Shown piece by piece: positions 3,257 through 12,409 of a DNA stretch of 28,994 bases. The DNA comes from a virus. Position 1 is the first letter of the stretch. The number at the start of each line of letters is the position of its first letter. Where the stretch lies: positions 1 through 28,994 of the IMG/VR virus record IMGVR_UViG_3300028925_010214; one strand, given 5' to 3'. The translations under genes were made by a program, and so were the position numbers. The notes beneath the pieces are model-generated. The model was not told the DNA's origin. It made no database searches and worked only from the letters and a program-made list of their open reading frames with translations.

Positions 3257-4487
3257 ATTATATAATTATAGTAATTATAAAAGATACTTTAGTTTAATAA
3301 AAGATGATAGATTATCTGAAGATTATAGAGATATATTAAGATCTTTAGGTAGATACTATGAAGATACAGAAAATAAGGATATTGATTGGCTATCATTTGG
3401 TACTTGGTACACAACACTTGCCCACCCCAGCCTAGCAAACGGTAAAGCCTCAGCAATCGTGCAAGCCTGTAAGAATTTAGCTACATTCGACCCTGCCTGT
3501 GCTACCGCAGCACTCAAAAACCTTGCGACCCGCTATCACATGAACGTCATCAGCGAGAAGGCTTTTGAAGCAGTGGAAGGATTGGCCCAGCCAGAGGAAG
3601 TGCGTGACTGCCTGCGTGAGTACAACATGGAAGTCAAGAATGTAGAGTGGGATATAGAATCTCTGGTAGTAACCGACGAACAACTTGCAGGGCAGCTTGA
3701 AGCATTAAAAAACATAGTGCGCTACGAGTGGTCAGTACCCGAGCTAAACTTAATGCTTGGACCCGTAGGCCGTGGTGATTTTCTTTTGCTTGGTGCTCGA
3801 CCAGACGGTGGTAAAACCACGTTCCTGGCATCACAAGCAGTACATTTTGCCAAGCAACTTGAGGAAGGCGAATGCATGTTGTGGTGCAATAACGAGGAAC
3901 CCGAGGAAAGGGTAGCCCAGCGTCGCGTACAGGCAGCTTTAAACTGGACCAATGCAGAGTTGGAAAAGGACACAGCCGCGACAGTGCAAGCCTACAGAAA
4001 GGTTGTCGGACCAAATGCAATCCAAAGCCTCAATAAATCATTTATGACGGTCTATGACGTCGAAGCTGCGATGGAAGCGTACAACCCCAAGATTATCATC
4101 ATCGACCAAATTTGGAAGCTTGGTGGATTCGAGAAGGAACTATCAGGCATTGACAGGTATGCTAAACTAGCCCAGTATGTCCGTGACCTCGCGAAGCACT
4201 TTGGGTGTGTCATAGGCGCTACGCAAATTGATGGAACAGCGGATAACGTTAAGTACCCAGAGATAGGCACGCTGTATGGGTCTAAAACGAGCGTACAGGG
4301 CGAAGCAGATGCTATCCTGATGATTGGTCAAGACAACGAGGCAGGACCAGATGTGCGGTTTCTACGGGCACCGAAAAATAAACTAGCAAAAGCCCACCCA
4401 GATTTTCGTAGCGAAGGGTGTGCGATTAAACTCGACAAGGAACGTGCTCAGATAATTTCGATGCGGGGCAAGTATGAGTATAAATAA
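3234..4487 (+). CDS. Replicative DNA helicase (DnaB/gp4 type), 417 aa
   Basis: ATG 3234 overlaps the primase end by 8 nt. The C-terminal RecA-like core is clear: Walker A GARPDGGKTT at 187-196 (K194), Walker B IIIID at 287-291, and GATQ at 328-331 in the position of the gamma-phosphate sensor. The N-terminal part (1-160) would be the interaction or linker domain. It should form the hexameric ring that unwinds the fork, fed by the adjacent primase and coupled to the polymerase encoded next, whose start overlaps by 14 nt. The first about 55 codons are strikingly AT-rich (all TTA for Leu, all AGA for Arg), unlike the rest of the gene. The core assignment is secure; the N-terminal region I cannot match to a family. 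Confidence 0.88.
   Translation: MDKEILSLLYNYSNYKRYFSLIKDDRLSEDYRDILRSLGRYYEDTENKDIDWLSFGTWYTTLAHPSLANGKASAIVQACKNLATFDPACATAALKNLATRYHMNVISEKAFEAVEGLAQPEEVRDCLREYNMEVKNVEWDIESLVVTDEQLAGQLEALKNIVRYEWSVPELNLMLGPVGRGDFLLLGARPDGGKTTFLASQAVHFAKQLEEGECMLWCNNEEPEERVAQRRVQAALNWTNAELEKDTAATVQAYRKVVGPNAIQSLNKSFMTVYDVEAAMEAYNPKIIIIDQIWKLGGFEKELSGIDRYAKLAQYVRDLAKHFGCVIGATQIDGTADNVKYPEIGTLYGSKTSVQGEADAILMIGQDNEAGPDVRFLRAPKNKLAKAHPDFRSEGCAIKLDKERAQIISMRGKYEYK
3262..3280. repeat. Perfect 8-bp inverted repeat in AT-rich patch
   Basis: TATAATTA (3262-3269), TAG, TAATTATA (3273-3280) form a perfect hairpin-capable repeat, 28 nt after the helicase ATG and inside a stretch with 21 G/C in 120 nt (3241-3360). It could be a DNA-unwinding or protein-binding element, or an mRNA hairpin near the start codon. 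Confidence 0.55.
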
Positions 4488-5652
4488 CTGGTTTAAGGGG
4501 GACTTTACCCGCGTTGTCGTGCTGGATTTAGAGACGACGATAAACGCCCCCGACCCTCATTTTGGTGCTGCGCCATTTTACCCCGATAATCGTGTAGTTT
4601 TGGCAGGGTATTGTGTTTTATTCGGGGAGGATGAGAGTATAGTCACAACAAATAACGTGGACGATTTATGTGCCCTTCTAACCGACGACGTGTTGGTTGT
4701 TGGACACAATCTTGCGTTCGACTTACACTACTTGTATCCGTATTTTGACAAGCTACCATCCTTTACGATTTTTGACACGCAGGTGTTTGAATACTTATCC
4801 ACGGGTAAGTCTAAGGTAATGCCTTCGCTCGAAAACACTGCTTATCGACTTGGAGTACCCTTCACTAAAGATTCCGAGGTCTCCGCGAGATTCAAGGTAG
4901 GTATTGGGTCAGATAAAATCGATAGGGAGTTACTCGGAAAATATTTGGTGGAGGATGTACGAGCAACCAAGGAAATATTTTTAAAACAAAGCAAATCCTG
5001 TACCAGCTATCACTCAATGTTAATGCAGGGCGTACTGGTGACATCTAAAATGTCTTACGTGGGGATGCCTTTTGATGTGACCTCTGCGCAGCTTGAGCGT
5101 ACTACACTGCAAGATAAAATAAACGCCTTATCCGAGACTCTGACAGACAACCTGTCAAAAATGTGGCCCCCACAAGCTAAGGCAGAGTTCAGCCTGGAAA
5201 GCCCGCTACAGATGGCAACTCTACTGTGGGGTGGACCTATCAAAACTCTGCGACAAGCTCCTGTGCTCGACGAGGATGGCAACCACGCAGTATACAAAAG
5301 CGGCCCTAAAAAAGATGAGCATAAGTTCAAGACAGTGGAAGACCAGAGCGAACACCCCGGAATCACGTTGCAAAAAACCCGCAATAACTTTGACCGGTTT
5401 GGTTGGAAGATGAATGCGGACATCGTAGCGTTGGAGCGGATTAAGGGATGTGATAAGCGCGCCGAGAAGCTTTGCTGTGACCTGCTAGACTTCCGACAGT
5501 TAGTGAAGTCAGCAAGCACCTACTTTGACCCTTACATCGAACGGGCAGTGTTGGGGCGTGTTCACCCCTCATACAACCATACAATTGCTCAGACCGGACG
5601 CCTGACAAGCTCGAAGCCAAACATGCAAAATATTTCCGGTAAAGAGGTTTAG
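4474..5652 (+). CDS. polA: Family A DNA polymerase, N-terminal half (3'-5' exonuclease, thumb, start of palm), 392 aa
   Basis: ATG 4474 overlaps the helicase end. The proofreading exonuclease is intact: Exo I DLE (D18, E20), Exo II GHNLAFD (N79, D83) and Exo III YLVED (Y157, D161). Residues about 175-350 correspond to the thumb region and include a charged insert (YKSGPKKDEHKFK, 274-286). The palm begins normally with TGRLTSSKPNMQNI at 374-387, equivalent to the E. coli Pol I motif containing Arg668. Five residues later (SGKEV) the frame ends at TAG 5650-5652, before catalytic motif A. Alone it could proofread but not polymerise. The missing half is encoded 1137 nt downstream; the two add to 660 aa, a normal phage PolA length, so little or nothing is lost. 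Confidence 0.9.
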   Translation: MSINNWFKGDFTRVVVLDLETTINAPDPHFGAAPFYPDNRVVLAGYCVLFGEDESIVTTNNVDDLCALLTDDVLVVGHNLAFDLHYLYPYFDKLPSFTIFDTQVFEYLSTGKSKVMPSLENTAYRLGVPFTKDSEVSARFKVGIGSDKIDRELLGKYLVEDVRATKEIFLKQSKSCTSYHSMLMQGVLVTSKMSYVGMPFDVTSAQLERTTLQDKINALSETLTDNLSKMWPPQAKAEFSLESPLQMATLLWGGPIKTLRQAPVLDEDGNHAVYKSGPKKDEHKFKTVEDQSEHPGITLQKTRNNFDRFGWKMNADIVALERIKGCDKRAEKLCCDLLDFRQLVKSASTYFDPYIERAVLGRVHPSYNHTIAQTGRLTSSKPNMQNISGKEV

Positions 5653-5678
5653 TGTTTGTGTATTTAGGAGAAATAATA

Positions 5679-5864
5679 ATGACTGAAGAAGACTCAAATA
5701 GGGTGTCCCTCATAAGAGGGCATCAGCGTGATGGCGGATACCTGTACGAGCATGTTAGGATGGATATAGAGTTCTTATTGGGTCAGCTTGAGAGGTCTGA
5801 AGCCAGGTTTAAAGATTTGCTTGCCAACTTAGTGAAAACAATCAACGAGGAGATAGATCTATGA
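5679..5864 (+). CDS. Small charged protein inside the polymerase split, 61 aa
   Basis: ATG 5679 is preceded by TTTAGGAGA (TAGGAG at 5665-5670) with 8 nt spacing; an earlier in-frame TTG at 5652 would bury that site and is rejected. The product is strongly charged and largely helical, with a C-terminal amphipathic stretch (MDIEFLLGQLERSEARFKDLLANLVKTI region) that could form a coiled coil. No enzymatic motif is visible. It is the first gene of the three-gene cassette between the polymerase halves, and its TGA overlaps the next ATG (ATGA), indicating coupling to the membrane protein. Confidence 0.7.
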   Translation: MTEEDSNRVSLIRGHQRDGGYLYEHVRMDIEFLLGQLERSEARFKDLLANLVKTINEEIDL

Positions 5865-6523
5865 GTGCTACTAAAACTTTTGCTGCTTTTGAGGAAAATG
5901 TAACCTTCTTACTGCGGTTTCGCTGGTTTCTCTGCTTTGCGTTAGCAGCGGTTATCTTGTGGGTTGGTTTATTGGCTCAGAAATTTACCGAGTTTGAAGA
6001 GGCTAGTTATTTTACCTACGATAAATTGTTTGCATCAGACGCGCTTTTATTTACTGATGCTACGCGGTTGCAAAAGGTAAGCGACGACCTCTATCGCGGG
6101 CAACTTGACACTAAGTCTATTTTGCAGAATTTATCTGAAACTGTTTATGATAACTCTGCTAACTTTACGCTATCTGTTTCCGAATTACGTGACGAGCAGC
6201 AGGTGCATGATTTATACACAGAGACTACGTTTGGTGAACTGCACAATCGACTGTCAGCCAATGAAGCCCTTACCGAAGTCAAGATTAATTTGATATCCAA
6301 AGCACTGGAACTGCGTATTATCCTAACTGAGGATAGCTTGCTGGAGGCTCAGACAATACTTGGGGAATACCGAACGAACTTTGATGAAATTACGCGGGTG
6401 CTTTCTTCATTTCGCAGGGTATCTGAAGAAAATGGTTTGGCACAACCCCCGGTAGCGTCATACTCCTTCTGTGCCGACGGTAACACCGTGTGCAGTACTT
6501 GGACTAAAAAAGAGGAGCAGTAG
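5861..6523 (+). CDS. Single-pass membrane protein with helical extracytoplasmic domain, 220 aa
   Basis: ATG 5861 overlaps the upstream stop. Residues about 22-42 (FLCFALAAVILWVGLLAQ region) form one transmembrane helix. It is preceded by Arg residues (LRFRW) and followed by acidic sequence, so by the positive-inside rule the N-terminus is cytoplasmic and the remaining about 175 residues lie in the periplasm. That part is rich in predicted helix or coiled coil (residues 60-195) and ends with two Cys (CADGNTVC) near a Lys/Glu tail. The architecture resembles an inner-membrane spanin or a superinfection-exclusion protein. The position, between two polymerase halves and far from structural genes, argues against a routine lysis gene. 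Function not assigned. Confidence 0.72.
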   Translation: MSATKTFAAFEENVTFLLRFRWFLCFALAAVILWVGLLAQKFTEFEEASYFTYDKLFASDALLFTDATRLQKVSDDLYRGQLDTKSILQNLSETVYDNSANFTLSVSELRDEQQVHDLYTETTFGELHNRLSANEALTEVKINLISKALELRIILTEDSLLEAQTILGEYRTNFDEITRVLSSFRRVSEENGLAQPPVASYSFCADGNTVCSTWTKKEEQ

Positions 6524-6524
6524 T

Positions 6525-6809
6525 ATGAACTTTGAAGAGTATCGTGCGCGTGTTAAGGGGACTCTACTGTATTTGCAAGAGGATGAAATTATATATCCGG
6601 TGTTGGGTCTTGCTGATGGGGCTGGCTTGGTAACTGGTAAAATAAAGCACTGGCTGCAAGGTGAGGAGTTAGATCGCGTTGAGATTGCCCGCGGGTTAGG
6701 GGATGTGTTGTGGAACGTTGCCGCGCTGGCAAGCGACCTCGGAATATCTTTAGATGATATAGCCGAGAAAAACCTGCAGGAGGTAGAGAGTGATTCTGAG
6801 CCATTTTAA
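6525..6809 (+). CDS. mazG: MazG-fold protein with degenerate metal site, 94 aa
   Basis: ATG 6525 has GAGGAG at 6512-6517. The protein aligns by eye with small phage MazG NTP pyrophosphohydrolases: GLADGAGLVTGKIKHWLQ at 26-43 and LGDVLWNVAALASDLGISLDDIAEKNL at 59-85 match the two helical motifs. The usual acidic ligands are mostly gone, though. The first-motif Glu residues of the common GEAGEV arrangement are Gly and Leu here (DGAGLV), and the Glu of the ELGD motif is Gly (GLGD); only the Asp remains. Canonical (d)NTP or ppGpp hydrolysis is therefore doubtful. Its 3' end carries the ribosome binding site of the polymerase C-half, which overlaps it by 20 nt. It is the last gene of the cassette in the polymerase. 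Confidence 0.78.
   Translation: MNFEEYRARVKGTLLYLQEDEIIYPVLGLADGAGLVTGKIKHWLQGEELDRVEIARGLGDVLWNVAALASDLGISLDDIAEKNLQEVESDSEPF
6778..6784 (+). promoter_or_regulatory. Perfect ribosome binding site for the polymerase C-half
   Basis: AGGAGGT lies 5 nt before GTG 6790 and decides the start of the second polymerase polypeptide. An in-frame TAG at 6784-6786 excludes a longer protein. It shows that the C-half is initiated independently and is not a relic. Confidence 0.8.
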
Positions 6810-7596
6810 AACTGAGGACACGTTTATCGAGTTGGATTATGCCCAGCTTGAGATACGGGTGCTTGCTTTAGCTACGCGAGACAAAAATCTGGTTGAGGAT
6901 TTGGTTTCCGGGCGGGACATGCACACCTACTTCGCCAGCCGCATCTTCGGTAAACCCGTAGAAGATGTGACACAGTCTGAGAGAAAGTTGGCTAAGGGGT
7001 TCTCGTTTCAGCTACAGTATGGCGCAGGGTTTAGGTCAATTGCTGAAAGCTGGAATGTTGATGCGGGGCTTGTTAAGGGGTTTATTCGCGACTACTACAC
7101 CCGCTATGCACAGGTAAAGAAGTGGCAAGCGAAGTCCCTTAAGGAGGCAGAGGCATCCTTTTCCTGGCGCGGGGAGTCAACCAAAGATTCGTTAAGCATT
7201 CCCAGCTATTACCTCAGTAATATATGGGGAGATAAAGAGGCGTTTTTTCTCTTGGCAGATAAGTGGAAAGGAGAATATAAGGTTAGTCCTACCAAGGTAA
7301 AAAACTACCCCATCCAAGGGGCAGGTGCAGACATTATGATTATGATGTTAGGGGTACTTGACCAAGATTTATCCACCAGTTTTGACGGGCGCGTGCGGAT
7401 GCTAAATACGGTGCATGATTCTGTTTTGTTAGAGGCACCCAACTGTTTGGTAGAGGATGTTGTCCACACTGCTAAAAAATCTTTAGAAAGTGTCCCCGCT
7501 GCCCTGCATAAGTTATTTGGTGTAGAGTCACCTGTAGAGTTTCCCGTTGATTATTCTGTGGGTAAAACCCTTGCAGAAGTTAAACAAGCTGCTTGA
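6790..7596 (+). CDS. polA: Family A DNA polymerase, C-terminal half (palm and fingers catalytic domain), 268 aa
   Basis: GTG 6790 follows AGGAGGT by 5 nt. All catalytic motifs missing from the 4474-5652 product are here. Motif A is ELDYAQLEIR (D16). The O-helix is RKLAKGFSFQLQYG at 65-78, matching Arg754, Lys758, Phe762 and Tyr766 of E. coli Pol I as R65, K69, F73 and Y77. Motif C is NTVHDSVLLE with D210, where the common Glu after Asp is Ser. The Phe762 equivalent is a residue type reported mainly in virulent virioplankton. The first residues (ILSHFKTEDTFIELDY) continue directly from the N-half's NISGKEV, so the pair reconstitutes an ordinary PolA. Neither half alone contains a whole palm; a two-subunit enzyme is inferred. 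Confidence 0.9.
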   Translation: MILSHFKTEDTFIELDYAQLEIRVLALATRDKNLVEDLVSGRDMHTYFASRIFGKPVEDVTQSERKLAKGFSFQLQYGAGFRSIAESWNVDAGLVKGFIRDYYTRYAQVKKWQAKSLKEAEASFSWRGESTKDSLSIPSYYLSNIWGDKEAFFLLADKWKGEYKVSPTKVKNYPIQGAGADIMIMMLGVLDQDLSTSFDGRVRMLNTVHDSVLLEAPNCLVEDVVHTAKKSLESVPAALHKLFGVESPVEFPVDYSVGKTLAEVKQAA

Positions 7597-10527: not shown

Positions 10528-10770
10528 GTGGCAGGTTTAAACACCCCAAAACAGAACACGACGCCCCGAAGCAAAAGTACCACCGCAGCAAAGAAAAAAG
10601 ACTCTATAGAACACGCGACTTACTTGAATGGAGCAATGCTATTAATGACGACGAAACTCCACCTAACTAGAGGAAGCTGGGAATTTACCCACGAACATTT
10701 CCAAGAATGTTACGATGAGGTAGTTGATAAGTATACCGCTGTTACAAAAGGTGCTACCAATGCAAAGTAA
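10528..10770 (+). CDS. Hypothetical protein with basic Thr/Lys-rich N-terminus, 80 aa
   Basis: GTG 10528, two bases after the previous stop, with GAGAGGAAA shortly upstream. The first about 27 residues are Thr/Ser/Lys-rich and likely disordered; the rest is a helical domain (SWEFTHEHFQECYDEVVDKYTA). The basic tail could contact nucleic acid. Its end overlaps the ribonucleotide reductase start by 11 nt. No family recognised. Confidence 0.55.
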   Translation: MAGLNTPKQNTTPRSKSTTAAKKKDSIEHATYLNGAMLLMTTKLHLTRGSWEFTHEHFQECYDEVVDKYTAVTKGATNAK

Positions 10771-12409
10771 TTCTTTTCGCACTACCCTAGGCGAGAACGT
10801 ATTTAGAACAAAGTACGCACAAGGTCCGACAGATAGCTGGCAATGCCTTGCTAGACGCTGCGTTGAGGACGTGTGTGGAGACATGGGTACGGACCGTCAC
10901 GTTATTCTTGGGAAGTCAGACCGTGAGCAACTAGTTCACTACATAACTACCATGAAGTTTATTCCCGGTGGGAGATACCTGTACTATGCAGGTCGAAAGC
11001 TTCACGCTTGGAATAACTGTTTCCTGTTGCGTGCCGAAGAAGATACCCGCGAAGAGTGGTCTAACTTAATATGGAGAGCGAATAGCTGCCTTATGCTAGG
11101 TGGAGGTATAGGGGTGGACTACTCTATTCTTAGGCCATCAGGACGCGCCTTGTCGCGCACAGGAGGCGTTTCTAGCGGACCCCTGCCCCTGATGCAAATG
11201 GTCAATGAAATAGGCAGGAACGTCATGCAGGGAGGCTCTCGACGGTCTGCTATATACGCATCGTTGGACCGAGAACACGAAGACATAAGTGCCTTTTTAC
11301 ATGCAAAAGATTGGCAAAATATGCACATCACAGATAAGGTAACTTTGGCCCAAGCAAAAGAAACTAACTTTAACTTTCCTGCACCACTTGACCAGACAAA
11401 CATCTCCGTAAATTACAGTGACGAGTGGTTGGGTTTAGGTGTCGATGCGTGGAAAGACCCGATATTTTTAGAAAACTGCCAGCAAGCACTTACCACAGGG
11501 GAGCCTGGCTTTAGTTTTAACTTCGGAGACAAGAGCAATGAAACACTTAGGAACGCATGTACTGAGGTTACGAGTGAAGATGATAGCGACGTATGTAATC
11601 TTGGCTCAATCAATCTGGGCAATATCGAGAGTCTGGAGGAATTCAAAGATGTTGTTGCCCTTGCCTCAAAATTCTTGGTATGTGGAACAGTCCGAGCCGA
11701 TTTACCGTACGACAAAGTTCAAGAAGTTCGCAGTAAAAACCGGAGACTCGGACTTGGGCTTATGGGTATCCATGAATGGTTACTTAAGCGTGGTTCCCGA
11801 TACGAGGTAACGCCAGAACTACATTCGTGGTTAGGGGTGTACAAGGATGAGTCTAAGAAAGCAGCCAACGAGCACTGTGATAGACTATACATCTCACGCC
11901 CTATTGCATACCGAGCTATAGCACCGACAGGAACAATTGGTATACTTGCCGGTACCACGACAGGTATCGAACCAGTGTATGCTGTTGCCTACAAAAGAAG
12001 GTATCTTACTGAAGGTACTCGGTGGAAGTACGAGTTTTGTGTAGATGGCACGGCGCAAACACTCATTGACCAGTTAGGTGTTAAGACCTCCTCAATAGAC
12101 TCAGCAAGCGATTTAGCTAGTAAGCCAGAGCAAAGAATTAAATTCCAAGCAGACATACAGGATTACGTTGACCAAAGTATATCATCAACCATTAATCTTC
12201 CTACAGTAGCTAGTGGTACTTTAGGTGTGGATAAGTTTGCTAAAATACTAGCCAAGTATGCAGGCAGATTGCGTGGGCTTACCTGTTACCCGGACGGAAG
12301 TAGAGGAGGACAACCTATTACAGCCGTTGATTACGCTGAAGCGATTAAGCACAAAGGGGTTGTTTACGAGGAGAACGATCCTTGCGGTGGTGGAGTATGC
12401 GGGGTATGA
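10760..12409 (+). CDS. nrdJ: Adenosylcobalamin-dependent (class II) ribonucleoside reductase, 549 aa
   Basis: ATG 10760 with AAAGG about 8 nt upstream; an in-frame TTG at 10724 is rejected. It reduces ribonucleotides to deoxyribonucleotides for phage DNA synthesis. The active site is complete: first redox Cys in WNNCF (C87), thiyl-radical and proton-relay residues in NACTEV (C267, E269), second redox Cys in VCNLGSINLG (C279), phosphate-binding APTGTIGI (388-395), and a C-terminal CGGGVC (C542, C547) that would recycle the disulfide. There is no adjacent small subunit gene, and TTTGIEPVYA is typical of class II enzymes. The reaction needs coenzyme B12, so the host must make or import it. Length fits phage class II enzymes. 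Confidence 0.9.
   Translation: MQSNSFRTTLGENVFRTKYAQGPTDSWQCLARRCVEDVCGDMGTDRHVILGKSDREQLVHYITTMKFIPGGRYLYYAGRKLHAWNNCFLLRAEEDTREEWSNLIWRANSCLMLGGGIGVDYSILRPSGRALSRTGGVSSGPLPLMQMVNEIGRNVMQGGSRRSAIYASLDREHEDISAFLHAKDWQNMHITDKVTLAQAKETNFNFPAPLDQTNISVNYSDEWLGLGVDAWKDPIFLENCQQALTTGEPGFSFNFGDKSNETLRNACTEVTSEDDSDVCNLGSINLGNIESLEEFKDVVALASKFLVCGTVRADLPYDKVQEVRSKNRRLGLGLMGIHEWLLKRGSRYEVTPELHSWLGVYKDESKKAANEHCDRLYISRPIAYRAIAPTGTIGILAGTTTGIEPVYAVAYKRRYLTEGTRWKYEFCVDGTAQTLIDQLGVKTSSIDSASDLASKPEQRIKFQADIQDYVDQSISSTINLPTVASGTLGVDKFAKILAKYAGRLRGLTCYPDGSRGGQPITAVDYAEAIKHKGVVYEENDPCGGGVCGV

Follow-up and report, generated by a model that had tools for sequence, protein, structure and literature searches.

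In T4-like phages, the family B DNA polymerase (43A/43B) and NrdA are both split, with a homing endonuclease or a spacer between the parts, and the two polymerase halves of phage 25 co-purify with polymerase activity (PMC2988022). Among family A polymerases, MEP401, MEP402 and most of their group (OM43, Methylophilales phages) have been described with a DNA polymerase in two ORFs, an intron being left possible (PMC10580990, 2023). A polymerase in two ORFs with a variable insert also occurs in Icepovirus (ICP2, ICP2_2013_A_Haiti, Saratov-12 and others) and in Vibrio phage VP41s3, some records of which annotate a joined CDS or hypothetical proteins. Two half-length DNA polymerase families, PHROG 9556 and PHROG 2573, exist as automatic clusters without a statement of a split.

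We studied a stretch of 28,994 bases of a virus record (called here the window), whose family A polymerase is likewise encoded by two ORFs. As in MEP401 and MEP402, an ORF with the exonuclease and the N-terminal part of DNA_pol_A is followed by an ORF with the C-terminal part, with small ORF(s) between them. The window resembles these MEP401-type and Zobellviridae-like phages in replication gene order and polymerase clade, as distant relatives on the tree. Unlike the window, MEP401 and MEP402 have their break about 13 residues later, just before motif A (between EIKTLFLSRYGE and MILNADAKALEW; site 2 below), and belong to another clade, which conserves a small ORF of its own. Icepovirus and VP41s3 share the break of the window (site 1), but their halves are only about 30% identical and their slot holds an HNH gene or nothing. 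The T4-like 43A/43B proteins resemble the window in being a phage enzyme in two polypeptides; by contrast, the polymerase families are unrelated, and the window's kind is split throughout its clade and accepts cargo other than endonucleases in the slot as well. The earlier note, made from the letters of the window, knew of no described family A split at such a site, a point to be amended given the 2023 report on MEP401 and MEP402. Within the literature covered, what appears to be new is the proof of two ORFs, the extent of the split across the clade, the earlier break at site 1, the exchange of cargo and a possible re-fusion (L027); earlier reports are possible.

Two ORFs encode one family A polymerase

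The plus strand of the window encodes, in order, a primase-like protein, a helicase, the polymerase N-half, three small ORFs, the C-half, an unassigned ORF, an exonuclease, an endonuclease, a phosphoesterase and a ribonucleotide reductase, after which the virion genes follow on the minus strand. The ribonucleotide reductase (window 10724-12409) has 561 aa and its MEP401 counterpart is somewhat longer, with 620 aa. The operon is tightly packed around the break: the 1137 nt that separate the polymerase halves contain numerous stops and run as 26 nt after the N-half, ORF 1, a 4-nt overlap, ORF 2, 1 nt, ORF 3 and a 20-nt overlap with the C-half (Table 1).

Table 1. Positions in the window of the two polymerase halves, their motifs and the ORFs between them
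Feature	Position	Strand	Basis
Polymerase N-half: 3'-5' exonuclease, thumb, first palm strands	4474..5652	+	Pfam PF00476 (64-132), PF01612, PHROG 17, PHROG 9556
Palm motif TGRLTSSKPNMQNI, last conserved N-half element	5593..5634	+	Alignment A2
Cargo ORF 1, 61 aa (start ATG 5679 likely; GTG 5652 possible)	5679..5864	+	ORF list
Cargo ORF 2, 220 aa, one N-terminal hydrophobic segment	5861..6523	+	ORF list
Cargo ORF 3, 94 aa, MazG-like	6525..6809	+	PHROG 229, E 4.5e-16
AGGAGGT ribosome binding site of C-half	6778..6784	+	Sequence
Polymerase C-half: palm core, fingers	6790..7596	+	Pfam PF00476 (147-379), PHROG 2573
Motif A, DYAQLEIR	6835..6858	+	D16 in all of 50 C-halves
Motif B (O helix), R65 to Y77	6982..7020	+	R65, K69 invariant (50 C-halves)
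Motif C, His-Asp	7414..7419	+	H209, D210 at least 90% conserved (50 C-halves)

The N-half (392 aa, ending at TAG) matches the first part of the DNA_pol_A profile (E 5e-14) and PHROG 9556 (441 long) over positions 3-440. Its 3'-5' exonuclease domain scores slightly under the Pfam cut-off (E 1e-4) and has the DEDD residues, D18, E20, D83 and Y157-D161 being invariant, the four acidic ones across 51 N-halves. Modelled alone with AF2, the N-half reaches a pLDDT of 90.5, and its structural matches are family A polymerases of phages and bacteria; the sole large part of low confidence is formed by the palm strands, some 20 residues at its end (pLDDT 36-52), as would be expected if the C-half completes them, other causes being possible. 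The C-half (268 aa, GTG start) takes the second part of the DNA_pol_A profile (E 4e-38) and matches PHROG 2573 (336 long) from position 8. Motif C of the window reads HDS rather than HDE. The AF2 model of the C-half has a mean pLDDT of 94.9 and matches Pol I structures in Foldseek. A Shine-Dalgarno-like motif precedes 55 of 97 C-half starts, compared with a background of 13%. Both halves were thus found as the earlier note had described them, the N-half by the ORF list, Pfam and the alignment, and the C-half, with its start, ribosome binding site and motifs A, B and C, by the ORF list, the sequence and Pfam.

The Pfam DNA_pol_A domain is divided between the halves without overlap, so that together they hold the domain with its motifs A, B and C: two intact ORFs jointly cover one enzyme, as in split replication enzymes of the gp43A/B kind. 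The break falls between the QN motif and the helix preceding motif A. On the chain of the Klenow fragment, the N-half profile stops at residue 357 and the C-half profile begins at residue 366, so that about 8 Klenow residues belong to neither, and compared with the fused relative L027 the window is 4 residues short at the join; the view that the halves meet with no obvious gap is therefore nearly right, apart from these few residues. By sequence and predicted structure, each half covers its own part of a single Pol I fold.

Each half had been judged functional-looking from its sequence, and we found no decay: dN/dS is 0.035-0.20 for the N-half and 0.02-0.12 for the C-half (pairs that are not saturated), which places both under purifying selection. 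A family A, B or C polymerase besides the split one was found neither in the window contig nor among the 7-12 related records searched, of which three are complete phage genomes: each of 12 related records has one family A polymerase, in two pieces, and families B and C (PF00136, PF07733) are absent from the seven related records tested.

Distribution of the split among relatives

Relatives were collected by scanning IMG/VR with each half and with an alignment of each, and a few records of the phages collection were added. Among the matches listed, 128 distinct loci have both halves at the junction: 99 are split, 28 are fused and one (L052) is an intron case. As the scans kept the best 80 hits, the ratio of 99 to 128 describes the clade and not all phage polymerases, and counts from metagenomic relatives depend on assemblies. 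The nearest relative, L007, has the same split, with halves 75% and 85% identical to those of the window; since it and nearly the whole clade share the split, this is more than chance.

Two nearby split positions exist, both between the QN motif and motif A. Site 1, seen in the window, ICP2, VP41s3 and others, has QN.SGK or similar at the end of the N-half and MIL.HF or MS.IK.CF.SRF at the start of the C-half. At site 2, the break of the MEP401 clade, the N-half extends about 13 residues further, and MLLNADAKALEW or similar opens the C-half. The site-2 rows form a single group on the trees, and the window clade (30 rows in the tree) is all site 1 except L027. With Autographiviridae as the root, the tree shows a broad split clade, near which stand three unsplit metagenomic rows (L105, L111, L165) and the distant, cultured and unsplit phages VpV262 and SIO1. 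Both trees give 3 changes between the split and unsplit states, and as the deep branches are weak, one origin or more are both compatible with them. In the phage clade of the window, the split is old and inherited, judging from these sequences.

The fused state of L027 comes from a 1-nt deletion at the ATGAG overlap of its split relative L028 (L027:2300-2450, L028:2540-2600). This may be a natural re-fusion or, as it is a single contig, alternatively a sequencing error; a fusion of this type was sought elsewhere and seen in the L027 contig only. In the contig of L145 (G006), a 767-aa open frame is listed for both polymerase hits, yet the locus has a TGA and other stops between them. The Podoviridae isolate ctOsX528 (Manatee Spring, L204:2489-4613) is annotated with two DNA polymerase CDSs and, between them, an ORF named R67 dihydrofolate reductase.

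The junction as a gene slot

Over the 97 loci measured, the distance from the stop of the N-half to the start of the C-half ranges from overlaps up to 1456 nt; 28 are overlaps, 16 of them of exactly 4 nt (ATGA). The cultured Icepovirus phages show this most clearly. In ICP2_2013_A_Haiti, Saratov-12, Saratov-15 and Rostov-5342 only 9 nt separate a TAA stop from an ATG. In ICP2, ICP2_2006_A, JSF27, JSF23, JPW and MJW the junction spans 475-555 nt, and the ICP2 and MJW records label the insert an HNH endonuclease. The flanks align at about 84-88% identity, and the polymerase remains two ORFs in isolates that have the HNH insert and in those that lack it. The joined polymerase CDS annotated for ICP2 (L004:4965-7533) and ICP2_2006_A (L211:1965-4533) conflicts with these insert-free relatives.

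What the junction holds also differs among phages whose flanking DNA is 91-97% identical for kilobases on either side. It is empty in L012 and carries an HNH_3 protein in L010, L013, L015 and L031, an MT-A70 methyltransferase in L014 and an 89-aa ORF in L011 and L029. Cargo is thus exchanged among near-identical phages at the exact junction. A homing endonuclease is absent from the slot of the window, and HNH genes occur at the same break in the L010 group and in ICP2.

As for the cargo of the window, ORF 2 has no match in Pfam or PHROG and a pattern scan gave no relative; a protein 40% identical to it is found in the slot of L007, together with a relative of ORF 3 (39% identical; the Pfam MazG match of ORF 3 is under its cut-off) and, additionally, a DUF3310 gene. 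A homologue of ORF 1 (60% identical) lies outside the slot in the early region of L034 (L034:2511-2708, opposite strand), where a homologue of the DUF3310 gene of L007 is also found (L034:3155-3376; likeness judged by eye), so that the cargo looks like ordinary phage genes. The three-gene cassette that the earlier note reported inside the polymerase is present, as interchangeable cargo and not as a component of the device.

Proposed assembly in trans and alternative explanations

We consider it very likely that one polymerase forms in trans from the two polypeptides and that their junction serves as a slot for genes, with a homing endonuclease as its probable founder. Both halves would be translated from one operon as stable polypeptides, the C-half from its own ribosome binding site. 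The N-half would supply the thumb, the first palm strands and the exonuclease for proofreading; motif A, motif C and the fingers would come with the C-half, and by binding each other the halves would complete the palm sheet and yield one ordinary, active polymerase; the family B halves of phage 25 are a precedent for such assembly. An endonuclease gene would have entered this conserved site, the halves would have acquired a stop, a start and a ribosome binding site, and after the later loss or replacement of the endonuclease the split would have persisted. For the lineage of the window we infer this origin, HNH genes being absent from its slot.

The earlier note had named an assembly join, RNA or protein splicing and a second complete polymerase as findings that would speak against two polypeptides. 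Misassembly is ruled out by recurrence of the split in about 100 distinct, independent records, cultured phages included, and an intein by the lack of an intein-like extension on either half. A self-splicing intron, whose removal would leave a mature mRNA encoding one polymerase, deserves more attention, as phage polA genes do carry group I introns, the report on MEP401 and MEP402 left one possible and the joined CDS of ICP2 implies one. Providencia phage PSTRCR_114 (L052), which is related but outside the clade, is a likely example at a nearby site: it has a weak group I match (E 4e-4, below the Rfam cut-off), its second exon supplies the missing QNLPRDG in frame, and it looks like a true intron case. 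However, relatives with a 4-nt overlap or a 9-nt gap remain two ORFs with nothing to splice, so no intron is needed; the insert content differs completely between relatives; no Rfam intron and no signal like that of PSTRCR_114 was found in the window or ICP2, lax thresholds included; and in the window neither a catalytic intron RNA with exons joining in frame nor any in-frame coding upstream of the C-half start was found. The gap-free relatives and the Rfam searches led us to reject the intron, which we rate as very unlikely. Translation could also join the halves, by ribosomal frameshifting or read-through into a full-length protein; the 4-nt overlaps of many relatives make slippage conceivable, and a 1-nt deletion relative to L028 is enough to make L027 one ORF. 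Against this, the many stops between the halves of the window, the stop and separate ATG of the 9-nt-gap Icepovirus junctions and the absence of a common slippery site at overlapping junctions (by eye) make it exceedingly improbable.

That the split gene is a decaying remnant in a phage replicated by another polymerase is conceivable in that interrupted genes often degenerate and the window record is possibly incomplete, but we give this a nearly negligible chance: the dN/dS values are low, the catalytic residues are kept over 50 lineages and the 7-12 related records yielded no further family A, B or C polymerase. The halves might instead act separately, the N-half as a free exonuclease and the C-half as a partial polymerase or regulator. 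The exonuclease domain of the N-half is complete and the C-half is modelled confidently alone; yet the N-half always retains the TGR..QN palm strands, the C-half is always without a thumb, and the halves are retained together in genomes with no complete polymerase, so that separate action, too, seems very improbable. The central proposal of the earlier note, a family A polymerase of two polypeptides assembled in trans, remains the reading with the best support, and decay, misassembly and an intron are rejected as causes of the break.

Significance of the split and further observations

These results suggest that a replicative family A polymerase can be broken inside the palm, stay broken across a deep phage clade and host genes at the break, which bears on the origin of obligate two-subunit enzymes and shows where, in nature, a polymerase can be divided into two parts. 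Since some cultured phages have an insert and others do not, the split is directly testable. Joined annotations such as that of the ICP2 record probably need correction, and surveys that use polA as a marker will meet half genes.

More tentatively, HNH endonucleases might cut the empty junctions of co-infecting phages, spread in this way and make room for replacements, an essential replication gene thus serving both as a permanent cargo port and in competition between phages; we regard this reading as possible but less likely than not.

In PSTRCR_114, the apparent group I intron lies in polA near the split site, carries an HNH gene and is annotated as two polymerase CDSs (L052:2845-3720). Some 20 loci of the MEP401 clade keep a small acidic ORF of about 77-91 aa in the slot (L051:7276-7509 and the slots of L144-L200), which might act as a third component or simply be a coupled gene.
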